Of a stretch of DNA of 34,453 nt, positions 2,995 through 28,017 are shown in pieces. The stretch lies in assembly GCA_019057775.1 (NCBI GenBank), contig JAHLWT010000161.1:1-34453 (forward strand), given 5' to 3'. The stretch is from Promethearchaeota archaeon. Lineage in GTDB: Archaea > Asgardarchaeota > Lokiarchaeia > Sigynarchaeales > SOKP01. Position 1 is the first letter of the stretch, and each line of letters starts with the position of its first letter. Position numbers and translations under genes: made by a program. Below the pieces are notes generated by a model. It worked only from the letters and a program-made list of their open reading frames with translations, had not been told where the DNA came from and did not search any database.

Positions 2995-3990
2995 CTATTT
3001 TTCAAGACCTAGCATTTTTATTATTAAGTTTGCCATAGAATAAGGATCTAAGGCCTTTTGGATGGCTTGATTAATATAATGCCCTATATCAGTATTAGTC
3101 TTTAGTAATTCTTCAACTTTTTCAGTCAATTTGTGTTTTAAAATTTGGAGCGTTTCGTTTGTAATTCGATTCTCCAAGTAATTCGAGATGACTCCTGATT
3201 CTTCGAGAAATTTTTTATGTTTTTTAATTAACTCCAGGAGTGTATCGAAGTTTTCGCCTGTTCTTGAATTCACTTTAGTAATTTCTGGTGTCCATTGTTC
3301 TATTTTGGCATATTTTGTACCTAAAACTTTTGAGTCATATTTGTAATTCTTTCTTAATTCTAACATTTGCATGATCTCCGCTACTTTTTTGTCTGATCCG
3401 GGTAAATCCATCTTATTCACAACAAAAATGTCTGTAATTTCCATAATACCAGACTTTATTGCTTGTATATCATCTCCCAATCCTGGAACTAACAGAACCA
3501 CTACTGTATGAGCAGATTTAAAGATGTCTACTTCAGATTGTCCTACACCAACAGTTTCAACAATTATTAAATCACAACCATATACATCTAATATTTTTAT
3601 CACATCTTCAGTTGCTCGAGCGAGGCCTCCCAATTGTCCTCTATTAGCCATACTTCTAATAAAAACATTATTGAGAGAGAAGTGTTGCTTCATACGGATT
3701 CGGTCTCCGAGGAGAGCTCCCCCTGTTAAAGGTGAAGTTGGATCAACACAGATAATACCGACTTTTTTCCCCAATTCAACATAATTTTTAATTAGTGTTG
3801 AAATAAAGGTAGATTTTCCCGTACCTGGAGCCCCTGTAATTCCTAAAATATAAGCTTTACCCGTGTGCTTATAGATCGAATTTATTATATCCTCTGCGGC
3901 ATTTATATCATTTTCAACAATGGTAATTAATCGAGCAGCAGCCCGTGTATTCCCACTTATTAACTTTTGAGTTAATTCAGAATAATCCAT
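2995..3990 (-). CDS. meaB: MeaB/ArgK-type GTPase, chaperone of methylmalonyl-CoA mutase
   Basis: A G3E-family P-loop GTPase that guards B12 loading and protects methylmalonyl-CoA mutase from inactivation. The Walker A motif 'GAPGTGKST' is at ~53-61. Other motifs are 'VDPTSPLTGGALLGDRIRM' (a family hallmark), 'VETVGVGQSE' at the switch region, and 'NKMD' (G4) near 192. A C-terminal helical dimerisation arm follows. At 331 aa it has the usual length. Its start lies 7 bp downstream of the B12-binding subunit gene, in the same minus-strand operon, which supports the assignment directly. Confidence 0.95.
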   Translation of the reverse strand: MDYSELTQKLISGNTRAAARLITIVENDINAAEDIINSIYKHTGKAYILGITGAPGTGKSTFISTLIKNYVELGKKVGIICVDPTSPLTGGALLGDRIRMKQHFSLNNVFIRSMANRGQLGGLARATEDVIKILDVYGCDLIIVETVGVGQSEVDIFKSAHTVVVLLVPGLGDDIQAIKSGIMEITDIFVVNKMDLPGSDKKVAEIMQMLELRKNYKYDSKVLGTKYAKIEQWTPEITKVNSRTGENFDTLLELIKKHKKFLEESGVISNYLENRITNETLQILKHKLTEKVEELLKTNTDIGHYINQAIQKALDPYSMANLIIKMLGLEK

Positions 3991-3997
3991 TATGATA

Positions 3998-4399
3998 TTA
4001 TCTTTTTAAATTGGATTTCACAAATTTTACAATTGTCTTCAAATCTGTTCCAGGACCATGAAAACCTTTTAAACCATGACTTTCTAGGAATTTTTTATCT
4101 TCATCAGGTATAATTCCACCAACCGCAACAAGCACATCATCTATATCATGCTCTTTCAATTTTAGCATGATTAAAGGGCATAACGCATTATGCGACCCTG
4201 ATAACATACTTAACATTACAGCATCGGGATCTTCCTGGATAATAGTATTGACAATATCATCTGGTGTTTGGTGAATTCCTGTGTAAATCACTTCCATCCC
4301 AGCGTCCCTTAATGCTCTAGCTAAGACTTTCGCGCCTCTATCGTGCCCATCTAAACCTGGCTTACAAACTAATACTTTTATTATTCTTTCATCAGTCAT
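3998..4399 (-). CDS. mcmA2: Methylmalonyl-CoA mutase, cobalamin-binding (C-terminal) subunit
   Basis: A 133-aa stand-alone B12-binding domain. The DxHxxG base-off/His-on motif appears as 'DGHDRG' (D17, H19, G22); His19 would be the lower axial ligand of cobalt. 'SMLSGSH' and 'VGGIIPDED' are the other cofactor-contact loops. In most bacteria this domain is fused to the catalytic barrel; the split form seen here is typical of archaea. It lies 14 bp after the catalytic subunit gene and 7 bp before meaB. The complex interconverts methylmalonyl-CoA and succinyl-CoA. No epimerase is in the window. Confidence 0.95.
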   Translation of the reverse strand: MTDERIIKVLVCKPGLDGHDRGAKVLARALRDAGMEVIYTGIHQTPDDIVNTIIQEDPDAVMLSMLSGSHNALCPLIMLKLKEHDIDDVLVAVGGIIPDEDKKFLESHGLKGFHGPGTDLKTIVKFVKSNLKR

Positions 4400-4413
4400 T
4401 TTACATTTTCCCC

Positions 4414-6078
4414 TTAAAATATTGAATCTTCAAAATAGGTTCCAAATACTTCTTTTAATGAATTCATAATTTCTCCTATGGAAGCATATTCCCTTACCGC
4501 ATCCATAATAAATGGCATTACATTTTCAGAACCCTTAGCAGCTTCTTTCAATCTGTCTAATTTTTCTTTTACCTTATCATTATTTCTTCTTTCTTTAAGA
4601 TCATTTAGTTTTCTCATTTGTTCATTCGCAACCTCCTCATCAATTTTTAGGAGAGGGACGCTGCAAGGTTCTCTCTGTTGGAATTGATTTACAGCAACTA
4701 TTGTTCGTTCTCTATTTTCAACTTCTTGTTGATACTTATAAGAAGCATTAGCAATTTCTTTTTGAAAGAAATTAGCTTTTATTGCTGGAATCACTCCACC
4801 CATTTCTTCTATCCTTTGAAAATAATTTTCTGCTTCTTCTTCCATCTTGTTCGTGAGCCATTCAACATAGTAAGACCCCGCTAATGGATCAACTGTATCA
4901 GTAACACCTGACTCATGAGCAATTATCTGTTGTGTTCTTAAAGCAATTTTTACCGCATTTTCTGTAGGGAGACATAAAGCCTCGTCGAATGAATTAGTAT
5001 GTAAGGATTGTGTGCCTCCTAAAATGGCAGCTAAACCTTGTAGGGTTACTCTTACAATGTTATTTTCAGGTTCTTGAGCCGCTAATGAAACTCCTGCTGT
5101 TTGGGTGTGAAATCTAAGTCTCATTGATTCGGGTTTCTTTGCACCATATTTATTTTTCATTCTCTTTGCCCAAATTCGCCTTGCTGCACGATATTTACAG
5201 ACTTCTTCAAAAAAGTTATTATGAGAATTAAAGAAGAACGACAATCGAGGAGCAAAATCATCAATATCAAAACCTCGTTCTAAAGCTGCTTCTACATAAG
5301 CAAAACCATCTGCTAAGGTGAAAGCCAATTCTTGAACTGCTGTGGATCCTGCTTCTCTAATATGATATCCACTAATGCTAATGGTATACCATTGTGGAAC
5401 ATATTTAGTGCAATACTCAATGGTGTCAATTATAATTCTCATTGATGGTTCTGGAGGAAAAACCCATGATTTTTGAGCAATATACTCTTTTAAAATATCA
5501 TTTTGAATAGTTCCTCTCAACTGTTCTGGAGTATGACCTTGTTTTTCCGCAGTCACGATATATAACGCTAATAATATAGATGCTGGTGCGTTGATTGTCA
5601 TCGACGTGCTTATTTTTGAAAGATCAATTCCATCGAATAATGTTTCCATATCCTCCAAAGAATCTATAGCAACTCCCTCTTTTCCAACTTCTCCTAGCGC
5701 TTTTTCATCTGTCGCTTCAATTCCATAAATTGTATGCAAACTAAAGGCAACACTTAATCCAGTATTCCCATGTTCAATTAGAAATTTATAACGATTATTA
5801 GTTTGCTCAGCTGTCCCAAACCCAGCAAATTGTCTCATTGTCCACAATTGCCCCCTATACATATTCGGATAAGCACCCCGAATAAATGGATATTGCCCAG
5901 GAAATCCTAAATCCCGTTCATAATTTAAATCTTTTACATCATTAGGAGTATATAATCTCTTAATTTCTATATTTGAGAGATTTTTGTAACTTTTTTGGTG
6001 TTCTTTCTTTAATGGGATGGATTTTTCCCATTTTTCCATATTTTCTTTTATCTTATCGAATTCAGTCATAAAAACCAT
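4414..6078 (-). CDS. mcmA1: Methylmalonyl-CoA mutase, catalytic (N-terminal) subunit
   Basis: A 554-aa TIM-barrel subunit that holds the acyl-CoA substrate and pairs with the separate B12 subunit. Diagnostic stretches are 'YPFIRGAYPNMYRGQLWTMR' near 65, 'GNTGLSVAFSLHT' (~105-117), 'TINAPASILLALY' (~161-173), 'ISISGYHIREAGSTAVQELA' (~234) and 'RLRFHTQTAGVSLAAQEPENN' (split barrel, ~320). 'GTQSLHTNSFDEAL' and 'DPLAGSYYVEWLT' follow. It is the first gene of the mcmA1-mcmA2-meaB operon, so the 240 bp upstream, shared with a divergent redox gene, should hold the operon promoter. A second in-frame ATG three codons in (at 6069) is an alternative start. Confidence 0.95.
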   Translation of the reverse strand: MVFMTEFDKIKENMEKWEKSIPLKKEHQKSYKNLSNIEIKRLYTPNDVKDLNYERDLGFPGQYPFIRGAYPNMYRGQLWTMRQFAGFGTAEQTNNRYKFLIEHGNTGLSVAFSLHTIYGIEATDEKALGEVGKEGVAIDSLEDMETLFDGIDLSKISTSMTINAPASILLALYIVTAEKQGHTPEQLRGTIQNDILKEYIAQKSWVFPPEPSMRIIIDTIEYCTKYVPQWYTISISGYHIREAGSTAVQELAFTLADGFAYVEAALERGFDIDDFAPRLSFFFNSHNNFFEEVCKYRAARRIWAKRMKNKYGAKKPESMRLRFHTQTAGVSLAAQEPENNIVRVTLQGLAAILGGTQSLHTNSFDEALCLPTENAVKIALRTQQIIAHESGVTDTVDPLAGSYYVEWLTNKMEEEAENYFQRIEEMGGVIPAIKANFFQKEIANASYKYQQEVENRERTIVAVNQFQQREPCSVPLLKIDEEVANEQMRKLNDLKERRNNDKVKEKLDRLKEAAKGSENVMPFIMDAVREYASIGEIMNSLKEVFGTYFEDSIF

Positions 6079-12712: not shown

Positions 12713-14062
12713 TTGAACGACCTTAAGTCTTTTTTTAACCCGAGAAGTATTTTGATCATTGGTGTATCTAGAAAGGAGTTTACCTTTAATTACACAATTT
12801 TAAAAAACCTTTTAGAGATCTTCTATAAGGGAAAAATCTATGTAATGAACCCAAACGCGAATGAAATCTTGGGTGTTAAATCCTATTCATCATTGGAAGA
12901 ACTTCCTGAAGTTCCAGATTTAGCTGTTATCGTTATCAATAAAAAAATTGTAGAAATAATAGAGAAATTAGGACAATTTGGAGTGAAATATCTAACAATA
13001 CAATCTGAATTGAAACCGGGGACTAAGTATTATAAAACAAGTTTAATGATTGGAGATATTTGTGAGAAATATGGAATCACTTACTTGGGGCCTTCTATGC
13101 TAGGAATAATTAATTTTAGTGATAATTTTACCACTTCAATCATTCCAGTCAGAAAACATATTATGAGGAAGAATAGAAATGTTAAAGAAGGTGTTGGAAT
13201 TATCGCACAATCAGGGGGCCTTGCTGGTGCTTTAGGATGGTGGTCACCCTCTCAAGATTTACCTATTTCCAAAGTGATTCACTTAGGAAGAGGGTTCCAT
13301 ATCGAAGAATCTGATATTTTAGAATACTTCTTAAATGACAGTACCATTAAAGTAATTTCAATATTCTTAAGAGATATCTCAGCTAAATTAATTGAAACCG
13401 TAAAAAAAGTAGCTTCAGTTAAGCCAATTCTATTTTTCTACGTGGGAAAAGATGAGGTTATGGAAGAAAAATTAAAAGATGCAGGAGGAATCTCTGTAAA
13501 TCATTATATTGAACTATTTGAAATTGCTAAGATTTTTCTCTGGTGTCCCAGACCAAATGGTCCAAATTTAGGTATTATTGGGCCTTCATCTGGAGCTATA
13601 CACTTAATCGTAAGAGAGATGAGAAAGCAACACTTATCACTAGCTAAACCTGGAAAAAAAGCTCAAGATGTAATTTTAGCAAAAGTGGGAGGTTCAACAT
13701 GCGAATTTGGGAACCCTGTCGATTATTGGCCTCCAGAAAGGTTTATCGGAACAAAAATCTGCGATATCTACAATACATCGGCAAATACGCTATTACAGGA
13801 TGAGAACGTTGATGGTCTTATCCTTGCTTTAGAATTTTTCATTGAAATAGAGTTTGACTTTATGATATTTAAAGATTTAAGAAATTTGTATCCAGACAAA
13901 CCTATTATTACAATTCTTATTCAAGCGGAGAGAGAAGGTTCTAAACGTGTCATTAATACTGCTTCTGAGCTAAAAATTCCAGTTTATGAGAACGAAATAG
14001 AACGTGCGATACGAGGTTATAGACTTTTATATGACTATTATTCACAAATATATAAAAAATAG
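12713..14062 (+). CDS. ADP-forming acyl-CoA synthetase alpha-subunit-like protein lacking the phospho-His loop
   Basis: A 449-aa protein starting at TTG. Residues ~1-125 are a CoA-binding Rossmann domain ('FFNPRSILIIGVSRKEF', 'GKIYVMNPNANEILG', 'PDLAVIVI'). Two succinyl-CoA-synthetase-like flavodoxin domains follow ('IIAQSGGLAGALGWW' ~166-180; 'LGIIGPSSGAIHLI' ~286-299; 'GNPVDYWPPERF'). In acetyl-CoA synthetase (ADP-forming) the second domain carries a loop with the phosphorylated His, usually in an AAxSHTG context. Here 'FFYVGKDEVMEEKLKDAGG' runs directly into the next helix and the SHTG segment is missing. No ATP-grasp (beta) domain is fused or adjacent. The protein may bind acyl-CoA without making ATP, or act as a regulator. 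Confidence 0.78.
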   Translation: MNDLKSFFNPRSILIIGVSRKEFTFNYTILKNLLEIFYKGKIYVMNPNANEILGVKSYSSLEELPEVPDLAVIVINKKIVEIIEKLGQFGVKYLTIQSELKPGTKYYKTSLMIGDICEKYGITYLGPSMLGIINFSDNFTTSIIPVRKHIMRKNRNVKEGVGIIAQSGGLAGALGWWSPSQDLPISKVIHLGRGFHIEESDILEYFLNDSTIKVISIFLRDISAKLIETVKKVASVKPILFFYVGKDEVMEEKLKDAGGISVNHYIELFEIAKIFLWCPRPNGPNLGIIGPSSGAIHLIVREMRKQHLSLAKPGKKAQDVILAKVGGSTCEFGNPVDYWPPERFIGTKICDIYNTSANTLLQDENVDGLILALEFFIEIEFDFMIFKDLRNLYPDKPIITILIQAEREGSKRVINTASELKIPVYENEIERAIRGYRLLYDYYSQIYKK

Positions 14063-14080: not shown

Positions 14081-15376
14081 TTAACTAGAAAAGATATCTT
14101 TTAGCTCTTTAGGGATTTCCGTAGTTTCATCCATTAAGGAAAGAGCATAAACCGATTCTCCACAGTTACATTCATTTCCTTCGAATAAATAGAATTTGAA
14201 CTGATCTTTCCAATTACAAATTTGCACATTACTAATTTCTGCTACATCTCCACAGACACAATAAATTGCCATGCTTTCAGAGTAGTTTGGAACTATTTCA
14301 TTGAAATGTTTAGGAGACTTGCTAAATTCTGATTCATTTAATATATTATTGATACTATCAGCCATCATGTCTTTCAGAGTTGGAATAAAAGAAGTGATTA
14401 CACCCTCTTTTCCTTTCATTTCTGAAAGGACAATAAAATTCTTCTCCGGTTTTTCAGTTCTCTTCTTATCTGGAAATATAGGTTGTTGGAATTGCTGGAG
14501 TTTTTGAGGGATTGGAATTGGTTCTACTCCTTCAGGATATGCAAATGTGTAGAAATATTGCATAGTTCCTTTCATATTTTTCTGATTAAGTAAATTTAAA
14601 TTTTCATAATCCTGACTATGGAGTACAAACTTAATTAACTGAAGAGGTACATTCAATTCCAGAAGTCGTGAACGTATATTGTCTAACACTTCACTAGCAA
14701 AGCCTTTCAATATCATTATATCCTCTCTACTCCCTGCGTAAATAACGTTTTTGTTTTCTTCTTTAAAAGCATGCCATTTCTTAACAACTTTGCCTTTAAC
14801 TAATTGGGGCAACATGCAGAAAACGCATAAGACTGGAAATAGAAAGAAAATATCTATTGGTAGAAATGCTAAAAGAAATACAACAGCAAACAAGGGCAGC
14901 GTAATAAGTAATGTTAGTTTACGCAAACGCTTATCCATTGATCCTTTTACTCCTTTTTCCTTAGCTACTCCTTCTGCCTTCTCTTTTAAACCATTTACAA
15001 CATCAATAATCTTTTTTGATTTAAAACTTTGTAGTAAAAGTCGGTCTTCTTCTCTACCCTCTCCAAATGCCTCAATATGAGTGGATATTTGCTTGGTATA
15101 TTGGTTTACCGTATTATCTTTAAAGATAAAATCTAACGTTTCTTCAGCAAAATAATCCATAAATCGAACAATGAAGAGTTTTTTCTCAACATCTTGAATA
15201 TCTGTTGGATTTAGTCCTAATGCTTCTTGAATTACTTGGCCTTGTGTTTTTTTCACTCGCTTCCCTGGTTTTTTAGTTTTTTCTTTAGGTTTCTCTGAAC
15301 TCTCAGAATTTTCTTCTTTGATATTTTCAGTGTTTTTCATAATATTCTCATAATAACTTAGTTTAGAATATACCAT
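14081..15376 (-). CDS. Unknown membrane-anchored protein with C-terminal Cys pairs
   Basis: A 431-aa protein (419 if it starts at the inner ATG, Met13, at 15340). The N-terminus (~13-50) is Lys/Glu-rich and disordered. A helical segment leads to one tight pair of hydrophobic helices (~155-190, 'LTLLITLPLFAVVFLLAFL' and the next), so most of the chain faces the cytosol. The C-terminal ~50 residues have two C-x-C pairs ('CVCG' and 'CNCG') about 30 residues apart, possibly a metal site. I do not recognise the family. It ends convergent to the acyl-CoA synthetase-like gene and lies just upstream of the ubiquitin region, but no functional tie is shown. Confidence 0.7.
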   Translation of the reverse strand: MVYSKLSYYENIMKNTENIKEENSESSEKPKEKTKKPGKRVKKTQGQVIQEALGLNPTDIQDVEKKLFIVRFMDYFAEETLDFIFKDNTVNQYTKQISTHIEAFGEGREEDRLLLQSFKSKKIIDVVNGLKEKAEGVAKEKGVKGSMDKRLRKLTLLITLPLFAVVFLLAFLPIDIFFLFPVLCVFCMLPQLVKGKVVKKWHAFKEENKNVIYAGSREDIMILKGFASEVLDNIRSRLLELNVPLQLIKFVLHSQDYENLNLLNQKNMKGTMQYFYTFAYPEGVEPIPIPQKLQQFQQPIFPDKKRTEKPEKNFIVLSEMKGKEGVITSFIPTLKDMMADSINNILNESEFSKSPKHFNEIVPNYSESMAIYCVCGDVAEISNVQICNWKDQFKFYLFEGNECNCGESVYALSLMDETTEIPKELKDIFSS

Positions 15377-15975: not shown

Positions 15976-17091
15976 GTGCTGTTTATCGTTTTCGATCCGT
16001 TAGAACGTTTTTTCTCAAGTGTGGCAATTATAGCACTAATTTTTTGTAGTATCCTATATATAAACCGAGGACTTAAGAGAGATACTTTAGATGAAAAAAT
16101 TCTCATGTATGGGTTTGCCACTTTTTGGATTAGTATTGCTTTAATAAGAATATTTTTCTATTTTACTGATTTCTTTCTAGAAGGAACATATACAGGTGAT
16201 CTATCCGCAATATTTCAGACTTATAGTGCCAAGCGTTATATATTCCTCTATTTTTATTTGTATTTATATATCTATGTTCTTGTTAACGTAGTTTCATTAA
16301 GTATAATGTATATTTGGTTTTCAATTCGATCAAAAAAAGAGTTCCAAGCAATCTCATCAGTGATGACTATTGGATTTGCTGTTTTTTTAATGGGTTGGGC
16401 TTTTGAGATATGGATAATTAAAGCAGAAAGCTTTATCCCTCCGGCATTATCATCCATCTTTGTTTTAATTGGTGCATTAGTAGCCTTTGCTCCATTGATT
16501 ATTAATCTGGAGTTTTTCTCAAAACGTATAGCTAATATATTGGTTATTATATCAATTGGTTTTATTTTACTCTTTCTGAGTTTGACTATCTTTTCAGCAT
16601 TAGAACTGGAGGGGATTGTTATTATCATTATAATGGTTGCTGCTTTTGTTCTTGCGATTGTAGTCATTTATATGGTTGTTCTTGTAATAAGAAGTCTCAT
16701 TTCACCTTCAACTGCGGTTTTTAGTTTAGAAGAAAAAGCAGAGCTTAAAGATTTCATGAAAATGTTTGCAAAACCTCAAGGATTTACAGAAGAAGAAGTC
16801 GCTTTTCATAGGGAAAAGAAAATTTGCTTAGTGTGCAAAAATAAAATATCACGATTTAACTATGTTTGCCCCGAATGCGACGCTCTTTATTGTATTAAAT
16901 GTTCAAACGCTTTAACTGACTTAGAAAATGAATGTTGGGTGTGCCAAACACCATTTGATGAATCAATGGCATTAAAGGCTGCAAAAGAACCTGAACAAGC
17001 AGTAGAAATAGAAGATGAAATTGTTGTAGACACAGGGAGTCCTATACAAAAAACATCTCATAAGATTGATAAAAAGGGTGATCCAAAATGA
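15976..17091 (+). CDS. Seven-helix membrane protein with C-terminal RING-like eight-Cys domain (candidate E3)
   Basis: A 371-aa protein with about seven transmembrane segments (roughly 12-30, 42-62, 88-112, 126-148, 157-177, 187-207, 213-240). A cytosolic linker is followed by an eight-cysteine domain: C284, C287, C298, C301, C306, C309, C320, C323 (C-x2-C-x10-C-x2-C-x4-C-x2-C-x10-C-x2-C), then an acidic tail. The spacing fits a RING-like cross-brace or a double zinc ribbon binding two Zn. Small RING-like proteins accompany E1/E2/Ub genes in archaeal ubiquitin clusters such as that of Caldiarchaeum; here the domain is tethered to a membrane. The GTG start has AGGTGA nine bases upstream. The next gene overlaps its stop (ATGA) and ubiquitin follows. 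An E3 role is inferred from context; a membrane adaptor is the alternative. Confidence 0.72.
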   Translation: MLFIVFDPLERFFSSVAIIALIFCSILYINRGLKRDTLDEKILMYGFATFWISIALIRIFFYFTDFFLEGTYTGDLSAIFQTYSAKRYIFLYFYLYLYIYVLVNVVSLSIMYIWFSIRSKKEFQAISSVMTIGFAVFLMGWAFEIWIIKAESFIPPALSSIFVLIGALVAFAPLIINLEFFSKRIANILVIISIGFILLFLSLTIFSALELEGIVIIIIMVAAFVLAIVVIYMVVLVIRSLISPSTAVFSLEEKAELKDFMKMFAKPQGFTEEEVAFHREKKICLVCKNKISRFNYVCPECDALYCIKCSNALTDLENECWVCQTPFDESMALKAAKEPEQAVEIEDEIVVDTGSPIQKTSHKIDKKGDPK

Positions 17092-17330
17092 TCTTACAAA
17101 TAACTCCAGTAGCTTTGCTGGGAATTTTACTAGCAATATTTATTATAGTTCCTTTTGTGATCTTAACATTTATAGCAATCTGGGTCTATAAAGACGCTAA
17201 ACAAAAAGGAATTAATACCGTCGTGTGGGTTTTAACTGTGTGGATAATCCCATTTTTCATTGGATTTATTATATATTTAATCGCGAGAAATAAGATTATT
17301 GAAAACCCTACACAAAATCATAATGGATAG
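17088..17330 (+). CDS. Small two-helix membrane protein (PLDc_N-like)
   Basis: An 80-aa protein with two hydrophobic helices (~5-30 and ~43-65) separated by 'VYKDAKQKGINTVVWVL'. This pattern, with a second helix ending 'WIIPFFIGFIIYLIARNK', matches the phospholipase D N-terminal-like (PLDc_N) short membrane proteins common in archaea and bacteria; these have no phospholipase activity alone. Its ATG overlaps the stop of the RING-like gene by 4 bp, so the two are translationally coupled and the products may sit together in the membrane. It precedes the ubiquitin gene by 263 bp. Confidence 0.7.
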   Translation: MILQITPVALLGILLAIFIIVPFVILTFIAIWVYKDAKQKGINTVVWVLTVWIIPFFIGFIIYLIARNKIIENPTQNHNG

Positions 17331-17430
17331 AATAATTTCATTAACACATAAATATTAAAAACAACTAAAATATTGTTAAGATACCGAAGGATCTTGGCAG
17401 TAAGTTTCTATAATTTAGAAAAATAGTACA

Positions 17431-17446
17431 TTTATATATATATAAA
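17431..17446 (+). promoter_or_regulatory. Possible TATA element upstream of ubiquitin
   Basis: TTTATATATATATAAA is the clearest TATA-like run in the 197 bp before the ubiquitin leader. It is about 150 bp from the ATG, so it would give a long leader. In such AT-rich DNA this is weak evidence. Confidence 0.25.
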
Positions 17447-17551
17447 AATAATTATAACATAAGAAACCAATAAAGATTAAATAAACATTATAAAAATAAT
17501 AAAAATTATTTCCTGCTCCCGCTTAGTTTGTTCTTCGTACTTATTACTCAG

Positions 17552-17593
17552 CTAAGCCGAAGGGGTGTTATCCTAAGCCGAAAAGGTGTTATC
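17552..17593 (+). repeat. Two tandem 21-bp units, each with a Shine-Dalgarno, before ubiquitin
   Basis: Unit 1 (17552-17572) and unit 2 (17573-17593) differ at two of 21 positions (GG versus AA). Each contains a purine-rich (G/A)GGTG core; the second copy, AAGGTG, lies 5 nt before the ubiquitin ATG at 17594. Because 21 is a multiple of three, the frame stays open through the repeat and would encode LSRRGVI-LSRKGVI if translation began upstream (TTG at 17528). Confidence 0.85.
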
Positions 17594-17851
17594 ATGCGTA
17601 TCAGTGTTGAAGATTCTAGAACTGGAAAGATAATTAAATTGGATGTTAAAAATCATCATCAAGTTGAGAGGATTGTTGATATTATTATCAAACATATGGG
17701 TATAATCAGTGCTGAACAACGGTCTTATTCCTTAGTTCTTCAGGACCAAGAGCTTCCTTCAAGTATAACTATCGAAGATGCCATCCATAAGTTTGGTTTG
17801 AAAGAAAACGATAAATTAGTGTTGTGGGCGAAAGTTATAGGGGGTTCTTAA
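17594..17851 (+). CDS. Ubiquitin-like modifier, precursor ending Gly-Gly-Ser
   Basis: An 85-aa beta-grasp protein: 'MRISVEDSRTGKIIKLDV' (hairpin), a helix (~22-37), 'YSLVLQDQELPSS' and the final strand 'DKLVLWAKVIGGS'. The diglycine at 83-84 is followed by a single Ser85, so the precursor needs one residue removed before activation. An Rpn11-like JAMM protease, an E1 and an E2 are encoded next to it. The ATG at 17594 has a well-spaced AAGGTG; an upstream TTG at 17528 would add 22 residues through the tandem repeat but is less likely. Lysines at 12, 15, 19, 33, 66, 70, 74 and 80 could serve in chains. It is convergent with the E2 gene (25-bp gap). Confidence 0.88.
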   Translation: MRISVEDSRTGKIIKLDVKNHHQVERIVDIIIKHMGIISAEQRSYSLVLQDQELPSSITIEDAIHKFGLKENDKLVLWAKVIGGS

Positions 17852-17876
17852 TTAAAAAGGAGTTTAGACGTCGAAT

Positions 17877-18440
17877 TTAATCTTCAATGATTAAAATATC
17901 GTCATCATCATCTTCTCCCTCTGCTTCCAAATCTTCTTCCGTGACTCCTAGTTCCTCTTTAATCTCCTTCATTGTTTTATTTTTGAAGTATTCCGCAGCA
18001 TCTAAACACATTTGATAATTTAAAGGATCATCAGGATTTGGATTTTGTATTAAAGACATCAGAGCTTTAACAGTAGTCTCTAAATCAGAAAGACGGGACC
18101 ATTTTTTCAAAACATTCAAACAAATGTATCCTGTACCTGGATTCCCTGAAGAAGAATCAACGGGGTGAATATTTGGGTGAAAAATATTAGAGATCCATGA
18201 AAAATCAATACCTCCCGGATACGGGAAACTACGGTTGAGCTTTAAAAAAATATTATGAGATCGTTGTGGTACTAACTTTCCTTTTACTCGCATATATCCT
18301 AAGGTTCTTACATTTATATGGAATTCAACACTAGTATTATCTCTAATTATTGAATGTTGATCCAATACTTTTTGATTTTTAATGTTCTGGAGTTCATTTT
18401 CAACTCTATCTTTCCAAATTTCAAAGGGAAGCTCTGGCAA
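17877..18440 (-). CDS. Ubiquitin-conjugating enzyme E2-like
   Basis: A 187-aa UBC-fold protein. The HPN motif is intact ('NIFHPNIHP', His88-Asn90) and the catalytic Cys is C107 in 'GYICLNVLKKWS', followed by the conserved Trp and by 'SLIQNPNPDDPLN' (~128-140), a close match to eukaryotic E2s. The N-terminal helix ('WKDRVENELQNIKN') suits E1 docking. An acidic tail with five consecutive Asp (~170-187) recalls the acidic tail of Cdc34-type E2s. Translation begins at TTG with GAGGT nine bases upstream. It is probably the last gene of the minus-strand run longin-GTPase, longin-GTPase, JAMM, E1, E2. Confidence 0.92.
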   Translation of the reverse strand: MPELPFEIWKDRVENELQNIKNQKVLDQHSIIRDNTSVEFHINVRTLGYMRVKGKLVPQRSHNIFLKLNRSFPYPGGIDFSWISNIFHPNIHPVDSSSGNPGTGYICLNVLKKWSRLSDLETTVKALMSLIQNPNPDDPLNYQMCLDAAEYFKNKTMKEIKEELGVTEEDLEAEGEDDDDDILIIED

Positions 18441-18571
18441 CTCTTGTCTACCTCTATTATAATTTTACCCTATTAAGTTATTATTATGTTAGCTTTTTTA
18501 TTTATTACTTTTTCTGTTAATTATTTTTTTTGAATTACACTCGGTAATTATTCCATTTAATTGTTTTTTTT

Positions 18572-19456
18572 TTACGTATTTTTTTCATATGAACATGTCC
18601 AACATTTAGGATCCTTTGACTTTTTAACTACTTTGAACGTATTTAATAGCCCGTTATAATTCATCTGCTCACCTATTAAAGGTTTACCTATATTCGGATT
18701 CCACTTCCCATGTTCTTTAAAGTAGTCAAGTCCTAATACAAATTTCAGTACTTGTTGCGACTGTAGTCCACCGATAATGGAAGTCGTCGTTATGATCGTA
18801 GCTATTTTAGGTACCGTCTCACCTTCTGAAGATTCGATTTCTTCACCTGTACAAGAAAATTTCTTCCACATTAAATCTAAATCTGTACCCGAGATACTAC
18901 ATTGTAAGCATGCAGAGTCCCTTTCTCCGGAATAAACTGCTTGAACACTCCCAAAGAATTGTTCTATCCCCGAATCAATAAAGGGAACGTCATAATAATA
19001 TGAATAATTATTTGACTCCAATCGAGCCTCTACATTATCAAGGCAAGAACATACGACATCAGCTTTTTTATAAAGGGCTTTATCGATATCTTTTAAATCC
19101 TTTTTTATACCAATAATTTCCGTATCTGGGCTTAGTTCTTCACAGGCATTTTTAATAGCATCAACTTTATAATCATTATTTAATGCGCTTTGATTGTCAA
19201 ATAAGATACATCGATTTAAATTAGACACATTTATGAAATCATAATCAATTAGCATAATTTTTCCAATCCCAGTTAAAACTAAATTTTTAACAACCTCATT
19301 ACCAGTAGCTCCTGCCCCAACAATCATAACTGTTGCATCTGAAATTTTCTTCTGATCCCAACCAAGGATTCGTTTCTGGCGATCGAACTTATCTGAATCT
19401 ATCGATTCAACCTCAAAGACGGTGTAATCATCCTGATTATTTTCTTTATTTGCCAT
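18572..19456 (-). CDS. Ubiquitin-activating enzyme E1-like (ThiF/MoeB fold)
   Basis: A 294-aa adenylating enzyme that would activate the ubiquitin C-terminus with ATP and form a thioester. The nucleotide motif 'GAGATG' is at 47-52, 'DYDFINVSNLNR' at 71-82 contains the Asp and Arg-finger region, and 'CSCLDNVEAR' (~136-145) contains the catalytic Asp. A structural zinc is bound by C183/C186 and C285/C288. The candidate thioester Cys is C202 ('FSCTGEE'), in the crossover loop before 'VPKIATIITTTSIIGG'. It is a single-domain protein, unlike the duplicated eukaryotic Uba1, and lacks a fused ubiquitin-fold domain. It lies 25 bp after the JAMM gene. Confidence 0.92.
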   Translation of the reverse strand: MANKENNQDDYTVFEVESIDSDKFDRQKRILGWDQKKISDATVMIVGAGATGNEVVKNLVLTGIGKIMLIDYDFINVSNLNRCILFDNQSALNNDYKVDAIKNACEELSPDTEIIGIKKDLKDIDKALYKKADVVCSCLDNVEARLESNNYSYYYDVPFIDSGIEQFFGSVQAVYSGERDSACLQCSISGTDLDLMWKKFSCTGEEIESSEGETVPKIATIITTTSIIGGLQSQQVLKFVLGLDYFKEHGKWNPNIGKPLIGEQMNYNGLLNTFKVVKKSKDPKCWTCSYEKNT

Positions 19457-19481
19457 TATTCAATACTTTAGGGATCCATCG

Positions 19482-19973
19482 TTAACTTGTTCCTATAACC
19501 GCATAACTAATTGGTTTATACCCCTTCTCTGAATTGTTTGCTAACGTATAAAATCCAAGCTCGTCTCGAATGGGATCTACAACCAATGCTACTTGGTATG
19601 ATTCTGGAAAAAAATATTTTTGAGTTTTTAAATCTGTATTTGATAAAAAGCAACCGAAGCCTGGATGAGAATGCCACCATCCAACTACTCTAAGGGATGT
19701 ATTCTCTGACTTCCTTTTCAATCTTTGAAATTTATTCTCATACTTACCAGCAGCACCCTCTATTTGGGCGGTCGAGTATTCTTCACTGTGAATTGCTCCT
19801 AGAAGAAAAAGTAAATCCTCGATTTTAACATAAAGTTTATCATCCCATTTTAATATGCTTCCAATCAAATATCCAAAAATTTCCTTTTCAAAACTTTTAC
19901 AATACAGAATGATTTTTTTTGTAGTATTTTCATTAATGTACACAGGAAATACATAATTTTCTTCTATTGTCAT
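19482..19973 (-). CDS. JAMM/MPN+ deubiquitinase, Rpn11-like
   Basis: A 163-aa zinc metalloprotease. The JAMM motif is complete: Glu31 ('KEIFGYLIG'), and 'HSHPGFGCFLSNTD' with His101, His103, Ser111 and Asp114. 'VVGWWHSHPGFGCFLS' is close to eukaryotic Rpn11 ('VVGWYHSHPGFGCWLS'), including the Ins-1 substrate-binding loop, and is less like generic bacterial JAB proteins. The expected jobs are trimming the Ser after Gly-Gly of the ubiquitin precursor and removing ubiquitin from targets. The C-terminal helical extension of proteasomal Rpn11 is absent. It lies 48 bp downstream of a longin-GTPase gene and 25 bp upstream of E1, so it is probably cotranscribed with both. Confidence 0.93.
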   Translation of the reverse strand: MTIEENYVFPVYINENTTKKIILYCKSFEKEIFGYLIGSILKWDDKLYVKIEDLLFLLGAIHSEEYSTAQIEGAAGKYENKFQRLKRKSENTSLRVVGWWHSHPGFGCFLSNTDLKTQKYFFPESYQVALVVDPIRDELGFYTLANNSEKGYKPISYAVIGTS

Positions 19974-20021: not shown

Positions 20022-20903
20022 TTATCTCTTTTCAAATTTCTCAATGATCGAAATTTCTAGCATTCTTTTAATTATTGTATAAATATTTTCTCGGGAATCT
20101 TTCTGAGTTGCTGAAAATCCGAATGTCGTTAATCCAAATGACTCACTAATTTTATGTGGATCAAAAGAAGAGTTTATTGAATCTTGAAAATTAGCAAGAA
20201 TATAAAAATCTGCTTTCTTTACCTGATCTTTTAAACGAGTGTATAAGCCCATTGTTCTACTTAAATTACCTGCTCCTGAATTTGTTACAATACAAATTAT
20301 ATTTACTGTTCTTAATAGCGAGCTATAATCCTTAGCACGCTCAACCAAGTTTTGAAAATTAATTTCTCGTAGAATGACCTGAGTAATTCCTTTTAAATCA
20401 GTTAAATTGACAGCCTTTTCTATAGTTTCGTTCATATCGTCATCTATTCTTAAAACAGTTTCTCCGGGAAATAAATTCATGATGGAAGTCTTACCTACCC
20501 CTGTTTCGCCGACTAATAATATCTTAGGTGGAACATAAATCTGGTCACATGCGAAATCATCTAAGTCCTCAATTTTAATTGAATTTCCTACTGGTTTTCC
20601 TACTTTAGTTTGCTGTTTGTAAAATTCTTCTTTTAATAAATTTAATTTATTTCTTACTTCTTCTTCTGGATCTTTAATATCACTGACAATTATAAATAAA
20701 TTATCTTGGTTATCATGTGAATACACATAATTAAAATTTGTAAAATTTAGGGAACTTATGCGTTCTCCAATTACTTTTTTCCCAACATGATTAATTGAAG
20801 TCAAAAATTTAATTGTTTCTTTATCTTGGTGATTTGACCCAAAAAATGTCTTAGAATAGACTAAATCGCCATTTGCTCCAATTATAATTATTTTCGATAT
20901 CAT
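20022..20903 (-). CDS. Longin domain fused to a degenerate small GTPase (copy 1)
   Basis: A 293-aa protein. Residues 1-~97 have a longin-type pattern: 'MISKIIIIGANGDLVYSKTFF', central strands ending 'NYVYSHD' and 'LFIIVSD', then helix 'EEVRNKLNLLKEEFY'. After a short linker a P-loop GTPase domain starts with 'KILLVGETGVGKTS' (P-loop 132-139). Later motifs are 'IICIVTNSGAGNL' and 'ILANFQD' where N-K-x-D is expected (G4, with Lys replaced), and a G5-like 'GFSATQ'. No canonical DxxG (G3) is visible. Longin domains act on GTPases in eukaryotic trafficking (SRX domain of SR-alpha, Mon1/Ccz1). Here both are in one chain, and a paralogue lies immediately upstream. Its role beside the ubiquitin genes is unknown. 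Confidence 0.8.
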   Translation of the reverse strand: MISKIIIIGANGDLVYSKTFFGSNHQDKETIKFLTSINHVGKKVIGERISSLNFTNFNYVYSHDNQDNLFIIVSDIKDPEEEVRNKLNLLKEEFYKQQTKVGKPVGNSIKIEDLDDFACDQIYVPPKILLVGETGVGKTSIMNLFPGETVLRIDDDMNETIEKAVNLTDLKGITQVILREINFQNLVERAKDYSSLLRTVNIICIVTNSGAGNLSRTMGLYTRLKDQVKKADFYILANFQDSINSSFDPHKISESFGLTTFGFSATQKDSRENIYTIIKRMLEISIIEKFEKR

Positions 20904-21024: not shown

Positions 21025-21921
21025 TTAGGTTTCTTTACTTTTAATCTTTTCAGTAATCGATGCCCGTATCATTTTATTGAATATTGAATACATTTTTTCT
21101 TTTGCAGATTCATGGATTGCAGAAAATCCAAAAGTTTTGACATCAAATAACTCTTCTACCTTTTCTGGTTCATATGAGGTTTTTGTTAGATCTTGAAAAT
21201 TCGCGATAATATAAAAATCAGCTTTCTCTACTTTCTGTACCAATTGTGAATATAACCTTCTGGTTCGGCCTAGATTACTTGCACCTGAATTAGTAACGAT
21301 GCAAATAATGTCGAATGAGTCTAATATGGCTCTATAAATTTTGGAATGATCTATTAAATCTTTTAAATCCATTTCTCTTAAAATAGCTTCATTCATCCTT
21401 TTAATATTTGGCAAAGGAATTAGTTTTTGAATGATTTCATTCATATCATCATCTAATTCTAAAATAGTTTCTCCAGGAAAGAGATTTATGATTGTCGACT
21501 TGCCAACCCCACTTTCCCCGACTATTAATATCTTTGGGGGTAAGAATATATTGTCTTCAACAAACTCGTCGAAGGGTTCAAATTTTTTAGTTTCACAACT
21601 CCAATTTATTAAATCATCATGATAACGCCCGATAAACTCATTTTTTAACAAATCTAATTTCTCTCGTGCTTCTTCTTCAGGATCGTCAATATCAGTAACG
21701 ATTATGAACATACATAACTTTTCATCATCATGGGTATAAATAAAATTGAAATTTCTGAAATTTAATGATTCTATTTCTCCGCCACCAATCTCCTTTGCAA
21801 TATTACTAATTGCTGTGAGGAATCCGCTAACTAAATCATTATCAATGGTAGTATCTCCAAAAAAGATTTTTGAGTAACAGAGAACGCCACCAGACATTAT
21901 TATTAGAATTTTGGATATCAT
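21025..21921 (-). CDS. Longin domain fused to a degenerate small GTPase (copy 2)
   Basis: A 298-aa paralogue of the downstream gene with the same layout: longin 1-~100 ('MISKILIIMSGGVLCYSKIFFG', 'NFIYTHDDEKLCMFIIVTDI'), linker, then GTPase with P-loop 'GESGVGKS' (135-142). The G4 position is again 'ANFQD' and G5 'GFSAI'; 'ELDDDMNEII' is shared by both copies and may be a switch element. The two copies are clearly related but diverged throughout, so the duplication is old and both have probably been kept by selection. The gap between them is 121 bp. It is the first gene of the run leading to JAMM, E1 and E2, so its promoter (21922-22040) may drive the whole set. Confidence 0.8.
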   Translation of the reverse strand: MISKILIIMSGGVLCYSKIFFGDTTIDNDLVSGFLTAISNIAKEIGGGEIESLNFRNFNFIYTHDDEKLCMFIIVTDIDDPEEEAREKLDLLKNEFIGRYHDDLINWSCETKKFEPFDEFVEDNIFLPPKILIVGESGVGKSTIINLFPGETILELDDDMNEIIQKLIPLPNIKRMNEAILREMDLKDLIDHSKIYRAILDSFDIICIVTNSGASNLGRTRRLYSQLVQKVEKADFYIIANFQDLTKTSYEPEKVEELFDVKTFGFSAIHESAKEKMYSIFNKMIRASITEKIKSKET

Positions 21922-27423: not shown

Positions 27424-28017
27424 ATGATTATCGACCATTGCGATAAAACTATCAGTATTAAAATCGTATATTTTGGCCCAGCATTGAGCGGCAAGACTAC
27501 CTCAATTAAAGCCTTATTTTCACATTTTGGGAAAAAAGATGAACTGAAAAGCATTGAAAACACTGTGAATAGAACTCTTTTTTTTGATTATGGTACGGTG
27601 AGTTTTCAAAACGAAGAATGGATTCTAAAAATCCATATATATACAACTACAGGGCAAGACTTTTATTTAATTACTCGTCCTATCACTCTAAGGGCAGTTG
27701 ATGGAGTAATCTTTGTTCTAGATTCACAGAAAGCTGTATATGATCGTAATTTAATCTCGTGGAATGAATTAAATTCTTATTTTCAAGAGGCATTGAAGGA
27801 GATCCCTATTATAATCGCTTTTAATAAACAAGATTTGCCAGATAAGTTTAATTCAATACAATTTCTAAGACAAATTAATTATCAAAAATTTAGGAATATA
27901 GATTCACGCAATACAATAGCACTAAGCGGAGAAGGAATTTTGGGTTGCTTTGAAGATATTCTAAGATTGATTTTGCAAAAGTATTATAAACATAAGTTAG
28001 TCTCCGCCATGAATTAA
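27424..28017 (+). CDS. MglA/Rup-type small Ras-like GTPase
   Basis: A 197-aa Ras-superfamily GTPase. P-loop 'GPALSGKT' is at 18-25 with following TS; G3 is 'TTTGQ' (74-78), where the usual DxxG Asp is replaced as in MglA-type proteins; G4 is a normal 'NKQD' (134-137); G5 is near 'ALSGEG'. The YFGP before the P-loop and the missing switch Asp place it with the prokaryotic MglA/Rup lineage and not with Rab/Arf. There is no lipidation motif at either end. It lies in a region with three other GTPase genes (two longin-GTPases and a Rag-like gene), in line with GTPase expansion in Asgard genomes. Confidence 0.85.
   Translation: MIIDHCDKTISIKIVYFGPALSGKTTSIKALFSHFGKKDELKSIENTVNRTLFFDYGTVSFQNEEWILKIHIYTTTGQDFYLITRPITLRAVDGVIFVLDSQKAVYDRNLISWNELNSYFQEALKEIPIIIAFNKQDLPDKFNSIQFLRQINYQKFRNIDSRNTIALSGEGILGCFEDILRLILQKYYKHKLVSAMN

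Follow-up and report, generated by a model that had tools for sequence, protein, structure and literature searches.

A lokiarchaeial ubiquitin gene cluster with a membrane RING-like protein as candidate E3 and neighbouring Arf-like GTPases

Does an archaeal locus with genes for a ubiquitin-like modifier, an activating enzyme (E1), a conjugating enzyme (E2), a JAMM protease and a RING-like protein encode a complete ubiquitin cycle, and is the last of these a ubiquitin ligase (E3)? The question is raised by positions 15976-19973 of a 34,453-nucleotide stretch of DNA from a Promethearchaeota archaeon (contig JAHLWT010000161.1, assembly GCA_019057775.1), which at its full length is referred to here as the window. 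All five genes were confirmed: a ubiquitin-like modifier, an E1, an E2, an Rpn11-type JAMM protease and a RING-like membrane protein, the modifier and the RING-like protein being the weaker identity calls. The locus is a lokiarchaeial ubiquitin system, of a known kind and in a known lineage, and its extension by a membrane RING-like protein and a GTPase is apparently undescribed. It is very likely that E1, E2, modifier and JAMM act as a conjugation cycle, and we favour, with reasonable confidence, a ubiquitin conjugation and removal system that includes the membrane RING-like protein; on whether this protein is itself an E3, for which it is a candidate, our judgement is evenly divided.

The locus was compared with 28 loci from 25 reference genomes (individual loci are designated L005 and the like), and residue invariance was assessed in sets aligned from the window and these loci. 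Named relatives of the locus proteins are Asgard, mostly lokiarchaeial, and one locus record (L027) carries the label Bathyarchaeota. The E1 gene (18572-19456, minus strand) encodes 294 residues with a single match to Pfam ThiF (PF00899; E-value 7.1e-47, 160 bits against a cut-off of 28.1), and its closest matches in the PDB are eukaryotic ubiquitin E1s (1.8e-21, or 2.5e-32 with a 19-member profile). Residues G47, G49, N79, N81, R82, C183, C186, C285 and C288, which make up the GxG, NxxNR and two CxxC motifs, are invariant in 22 of 22 sequences, and so is the candidate catalytic cysteine, C202. C202 most likely corresponds to the canonical cysteine, since in Uba1, SAE2 and Uba3 a CxxC is likewise followed, about twelve residues on, by Cys-Thr; the PDB alignments could not place the active-site cysteine, which lies outside the stretches they cover. 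The second (inactive) adenylation domain, the separate cysteine domain and the ubiquitin-fold domain of canonical E1s were not found. With its one ThiF domain, this E1 must recruit E2 in a way that differs from canonical E1s, and the short protein is a minimal form that may work like an E1.

The E2 (17877-18440, minus strand) matches Pfam UQ_con (PF00179; 4.4e-12, 46.2 bits against 27), with Rad6 as its closest PDB match (3.2e-09). Its H88-P89-N90 motif and C107 are invariant in 22 of 22 members, the 23rd being a fragment without that part, and relative to Rad6 it carries an insert of nine residues between HPN and the cysteine. The JAMM protein (19482-19973, minus strand), a putative deubiquitinase or maturase of the Rpn11 type, matches Pfam JAB (PF01398; 2e-12, 47.4 bits against 22.5) and, best in the PDB, yeast Rpn11 (2.4e-12); E31, H101, H103, S111 and D114 are invariant in 22 of 22. 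A preliminary description of this DNA had claimed a complete E1, E2, modifier and JAMM set with legible catalytic residues, and both parts of the claim stand: every gene lies where it was placed, the three enzymes exceed their Pfam cut-offs, and C202, HPN with C107 and the five JAMM residues had been named correctly.

The modifier gene (17594-17851, plus strand) starts at ATG 17594 and encodes an 85-residue precursor ending in WAKVIGGS, with VIGGS as its C-terminus; a 107-residue open reading frame (ORF) from TTG 17528 was rejected as too long, relatives beginning with MRISVED. The modifier has no Pfam match over cut-off, and a single-sequence search of the PDB related it weakly to ubiquitin (E 0.083). 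Using hhalign, a 40-member profile of residues 9-84 aligned to a 70-residue ubiquitin piece over 69 columns with 88.1% probability; this alignment points towards a beta-grasp fold, whereas the Pfam matches of the window protein stay under their cut-offs. The mark of the ubiquitin family, a C-terminal Gly-Gly after a hydrophobic-basic stretch, is present, and the motif W-[AT]-[KR]-V-[IV]-G-G is common to the 40 aligned modifiers. A match to poly-ubiquitin chains at E 1.6e-12 was left unused because it sums over repeats, single-copy chains giving E-values of about 0.3-1.

Among the best 120 of 177 modifier relatives found, Gly-Gly is kept in 119, while the tail behind it varies from 0 to 10 residues (none in 12, one in 48, ten in 1) and shows no conserved sequence. 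Most modifiers would therefore need trimming, and the combination of a constant Gly-Gly and an unconstrained tail resembles a precursor that a protease trims. Since Rpn11 of Caldiarchaeum trims pro-ubiquitin exactly there, right after Gly-Gly (PMC6043591), the earlier suggestion that the JAMM protein matures the modifier is plausible, and we consider it likely. An avoidance of charged residues immediately after Gly-Gly, which could be expected from the Caldiarchaeum mutants, is not claimed here: such residues number 5 of 107 at that position and 23 of 147 at later ones (p 0.007), but when each tail is counted once the figures become 5 of 58 and 23 of 129 (p 0.12).

The modifier and E2 genes stand tail to tail in 22 of the 28 loci, so that the split arrangement with meeting ends, which had been singled out as noteworthy, is the norm of the lineage. 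JAMM is found in 21 of the loci and is directly followed by a GTPase gene in 18 of these 21; the exceptions are L005, which ends inside JAMM, L015, where the GTPases lie on the other side, and L012, which has none. The window carries two copies of the GTPase on the minus strand (copy 1 at 20022-20903 and copy 2 at 21025-21921), which are 49% identical. Both the P-loop and the G-domain fold expected of Arf/Ras-like GTPases were found, and the predicted model has an Arf-like fold. The order of secondary structure in the N-terminal part, a part that lies outside the fold-search rows, fits the longin order beta2-alpha-beta3-alpha, and Fuz_longin_1 matches copy 1 below its cut-off (15 bits against 26.1). 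Whether the GTPase acts in the same process as the ubiquitin cascade is, in our estimate, an even call.

Several other features were seen around these genes. L007 (1223-5352) differs from the other loci in that a gap of about 2.8 kb lies between the E1 and a short E2 ORF. Beside the ubiquitin cluster, a longin-type GTPase fused to a carbon-nitrogen hydrolase domain is encoded by ORFs of 868-880 residues in L017 (12442-15084) and L021 (12358-14964); ORFs of similar length, their domain content unscanned, occur in L011, L024, L009 and L010. The window holds a further Arf/Ras-like small GTPase at 27424-28017.

The RING-like membrane protein (15976-17091, plus strand; 371 residues) is predicted to consist of a helical bundle and a C-terminal C4C4 domain (16825-16974) with the pattern CX2C-X10-CX2C-X4-CX2C-X10-CX2C, from C284 to C323. 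Its stop codon is overlapped by the start of a gene for a small hydrophobic protein (17088-17330, plus strand; 80 residues; weak PLDc_N-like match, E 0.049), relatives of which are present in several loci. Beyond what had been described, the RING-like protein belongs to a large family, and the longin-like GTPase and the small hydrophobic protein share its neighbourhood. All 25 genomes behind the loci contain the RING-like protein or domain, with 1-24 matches per genome, a count in which broken genes can appear twice. By a crude hydropathy count, 36 of 50 distinct domain-bearing ORFs of the loci have at least four hydrophobic segments. A scan of five domain-bearing ORFs found one with PNPOx, one with an Ig-like match over cut-off, one with an Ig-like match under it, one with double zinc ribbons and one membrane protein with a weak C1_2 match only.

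In 227 genomes of the Asgard phylum, the RING-like domain was detected at E-values up to 0.001 in 61 and at 1e-10 or better in 35; the window-type modifier was found in 28, with 27 of them at 1e-10 or better. The strong form of the domain is present in 26 of the 27 genomes with a strong modifier match against 9 of the 200 others (Fisher 1.8e-25; kinship uncontrolled). At the level of loci, the domain lies within 4 kb of the modifier in 20 of 28, and, counting one locus per genome, in 17 of 25 against 0.36 expected from the number of matches and genome size.

Satellite modules occur in L026 (twice), L028 and L011, each consisting of a Gly-Gly modifier paralogue, a GTPase and a RING-like membrane protein, with the small hydrophobic protein also present in those of L026 and L028. 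No E1, E2 or JAMM profile match was obtained in these loci; beyond the modifier, L011 comprises only 2.9 kb on the GTPase side, and L028 no more than 3.4 kb on the opposite side. The complete cluster L021 shares a chromosome with L026, and L012 shares an assembly with L011; the satellite modules could thus use the E1 and E2 encoded there. In L026 and L028 the RING-like gene differs from the core cluster in position and orientation, which implies that its link to the modifier survived rearrangement. The satellite modules are the best evidence that the RING-like protein, the small protein and the GTPase belong with the modifier.

As to what the domain is, the eight-cysteine pattern is intact in 117 of the best 120 of 328 relatives found, and in the AlphaFold2 model a pair of strands and a helix follow one another as in a RING (pLDDT, the predicted local distance difference test, 75-83 over residues 281-330; whole-model predicted template modelling score, pTM, 0.57). 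A valine at C1+2, a hydrophobic residue between C1 and C2, is found in all 117. In a Foldseek search, 50 of 205 rows were considered: the first is TRIM37 (probability 0.99, E 0.29, root mean square deviation (rmsd) about 15 over 79 columns), lower rows include Rad18, PRC1 RINGs and Prp19, the last of which can be superposed over 46 columns with an rmsd of 1.8 (E 2.6), and the other rows are membrane and helical proteins. Going by row length, the RING/U-box rows appear to cover the C-terminal domain. With hhalign, the RING-domain profile reached only 57% against the TRIM37 RING piece. Weak Pfam matches at E up to 0.1 comprise C1_2 in 43 of 46 members, RING in 26 and DZR in 18. A double zinc ribbon, which fits the spacing and the weak DZR matches, was rejected because the helix after C5 in the model fits RING better. 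The model thus suggests that the fold is probably RING, and to this extent the earlier proposal of a RING-like candidate E3 finds moderate support in the cysteine pattern and the modelled topology.

The part of that proposal concerning an E3 role fares less well, and several observations weigh against a membrane E3 acting in this cascade. The marks of an E3 in the domain are mixed: in the 117 relatives, Trp between C6 and C7 was found in none, and the residue after C8, the linchpin position, is Glu or Asp in 94, Lys in 3 and Arg in none, with Gln in the window protein; C7+1 is Trp, not Pro, in all 117. In the Caldiarchaeum E3, I30Q abolishes the reaction, and W58A and R69A, which alter the counterparts of the missing Trp and of the missing basic residue, impair it (PMC5654768). 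The domain stays below the Pfam RING cut-off (19.8 against 27 bits), C1_2 outnumbers RING among the weak matches, the E-values of the 205 Foldseek matches all lie above 0.001 (0.29 at best), and the leading TRIM37 rows fit the model poorly on superposition. As regards linkage, the co-occurrence and linkage tests ignore kinship, and no RING-like domain was seen less than 4 kb from the modifier in L003, L004, L007, L014, L016, L023, L025 and L027, of which all but L004, L014 and L025 are cut off inside this distance on one side. As regards the enzymes, C83, C136 and C138 of E1 are likewise invariant in 22 of 22, so that one of them may be the thioester site instead, its single ThiF domain would call for another way of meeting E2, and with 1-5 E2-family matches in each genome of the phylum that matches PF00179, the window E2 may not be the sole partner.

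These observations would be accommodated if the cascade is real and the RING-like domain is no E3, being instead a zinc-bound binding module, comparable to that of TFIIH p44, which serves at the membrane to recruit partners or to bind the modifier while conjugation proceeds by E2 only or via another E3; we give this account slightly less than an even chance. The best PDB profile match of the domain is indeed TFIIH p44 (E 0.047), and the two have the same cysteine spacing in their second half, the linchpin position is predominantly acidic, and the domain occurs on very different proteins (the ORF with an Ig-like match and that with PNPOx), as is possible for a generic module. What a mere binding module explains less readily is the strong linkage to ubiquitin genes, satellite modules included, the presence of several RING/U-box domains of E3s in the Foldseek results and the valine kept at C1+2 throughout.

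Two further explanations concern the cascade itself. The size of E1, which is that of MoeB, and its matches to ThiF/MoeB models (PDB MoeB, 3e-16) would suit a modifier that serves mainly as a sulphur carrier of the ThiS/MoaD/SAMP kind with protein conjugation as a secondary role, but a dedicated E2 with invariant HPN and cysteine, an Rpn11-type JAMM, the eukaryotic ubiquitin E1s as closest PDB matches and the fact that all 23 NCBIfam matches of E1 fall well under their cut-offs make this very improbable. An acquired antiphage island of bacterial type, of the Bil, Bub or CBASS E1-E2 kind, is to be regarded as most improbable: PADLOC E1-E2 and JAB models do match E1 and JAMM (best 2.3e-18 and 8e-07), yet E2, modifier and RING-like protein are without a PADLOC match up to an E-value of 0.01, JAMM and E1 are nearest to eukaryotic proteins in the PDB, and the layout is conserved across lokiarchaeial loci.

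For the ubiquitin system with a membrane RING-like protein, which we prefer, the following cycle can be proposed, starting from what was observed or modelled (the genes, the invariant catalytic residues, the linkage, the RING-like topology and the Arf-like fold); every reaction step we infer from Caldiarchaeum chemistry. The Rpn11-like JAMM would trim the residue after Gly-Gly of the modifier, E1 would adenylate the glycine carboxylate and form a thioester, most likely at C202, and the modifier would then move to C107 of E2. The membrane-anchored RING-like protein, which might choose the targets, would dock E2 via its V286/W321 side and direct conjugation to proteins located at the membrane, JAMM would also take the modifier off, and the neighbouring GTPases would link the system to membrane traffic. 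More tentatively, and on balance unlikely, the system could be centred on the membrane, with an independently expanded family of C4C4 E3s, multi-pass as well as other proteins that have this one RING-like domain in common, mostly acidic at the linchpin position, and duplicated satellite modules (modifier, RING-like membrane protein, small hydrophobic protein and GTPase of longin-Arf type) that borrow E1 and E2. Such a system would mean that ubiquitylation was coupled to small-GTPase control of membranes in Asgard archaea before or beside eukaryotes, and would point to a different activation chemistry, for example an acidic residue pairing with K/R80 of the modifier.

Among the unsolved problems of eukaryote origins is the growth of the ubiquitin system from a few genes to one with hundreds of E3s. 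The present system would provide a second, independent example of such an expansion, in which a compact E1-E2-JAMM set and a modifier stand beside about two dozen domain matches per genome at most, several of them linked genetically to modifier genes and Arf-like GTPases. It would also connect ubiquitin with membranes in Asgard archaea in a direct way that can be tested. Should the domain prove to be no E3, it is still a strongly linked and unexplained partner of ubiquitin.

Some observations made alongside may be recorded here. The RING-like domain also occurs within very long open frames (1616-2279 residues) in L049, L050 and L051; in the parts of the L049 and L051 frames that were scanned, Ig-like matches were found, under cut-off in L049. 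In the window, the ORF of a short-chain dehydrogenase (1223-1782) is interrupted near 1640 by an (AT)n run and passes directly into the tail (C7-C8 end) of a second RING-like membrane gene, apparently through a misassembly or a deletion. Upstream of the ubiquitin cluster, a 431-residue protein without Pfam match (14081-15376) and a CoA-binding protein (12713-14062) keep their place in L001-L004. A methylmalonyl-CoA mutase with a gene for its MeaB chaperone GTPase (2995-6078) is ordinary.

With respect to published work, ubiquitin regions of Lokiarchaeota, with a discrete region separate from ESCRT, have been reported by Hatano 2022 (PMC9192718), where the E3 marker is IPR018611, and the core set is therefore known; E3-like RING finger proteins of Asgard archaea are likewise noted in PMC6043591. 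Neither the membrane RING-like family nor the satellite modules nor a connection with the GTPase is described in the passages and sections consulted of PMC5654768, PMC6043591, PMC9192718, PMC10936438, PMC10307638 and PMC11291895. A wider literature search, which covered neither subscription papers nor figures and supplements, likewise returned no description of them.

Among the systems that come closest is the operon of Caldiarchaeum subterraneum (Rpn11, ubiquitin, E2, E1 and the srfp E3), which has the same five roles as the window and whose cascade has been reconstituted in vitro (PMC5654768). Both systems have a pro-ubiquitin tail after Gly-Gly and an Rpn11-type JAMM (PMC5654768 and PMC6043591). 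The Caldiarchaeum E3 is a small RING-H2 protein with an important arginine (R69), whereas the RING-like protein of the window sits in the membrane, is of the C4C4 type and lacks the basic residue. The window E1, with its one ThiF domain, and the window E2, with its nine-residue insert as measured against Rad6, also appear to differ. The ubiquitin regions of Lokiarchaeota share lineage and core genes with the window (PMC9192718). The C4C4 RING of TFIIH p44 has a second-half cysteine spacing identical in alignment to that of the window domain, although p44 is a soluble transcription factor subunit, unlike the membrane-bound window protein, and matches at E 0.047 only. E1s of the UBA5/MoeB type resemble the window E1 in size and in their single adenylation domain; unlike in these, the candidate cysteine sits after the CxxC pair and before a threonine, as in Uba1, SAE2 and Uba3. 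From other Arf-family GTPases, that of the window is distinguished by its longin-like N-terminal part and by NFQD in place of NKxD. Eukaryotic Rpn11 has the HSHP-x-x-G-C loop and the JAMM residues in common with the window JAMM, which, unlike it, is a single short protein of 163 residues.

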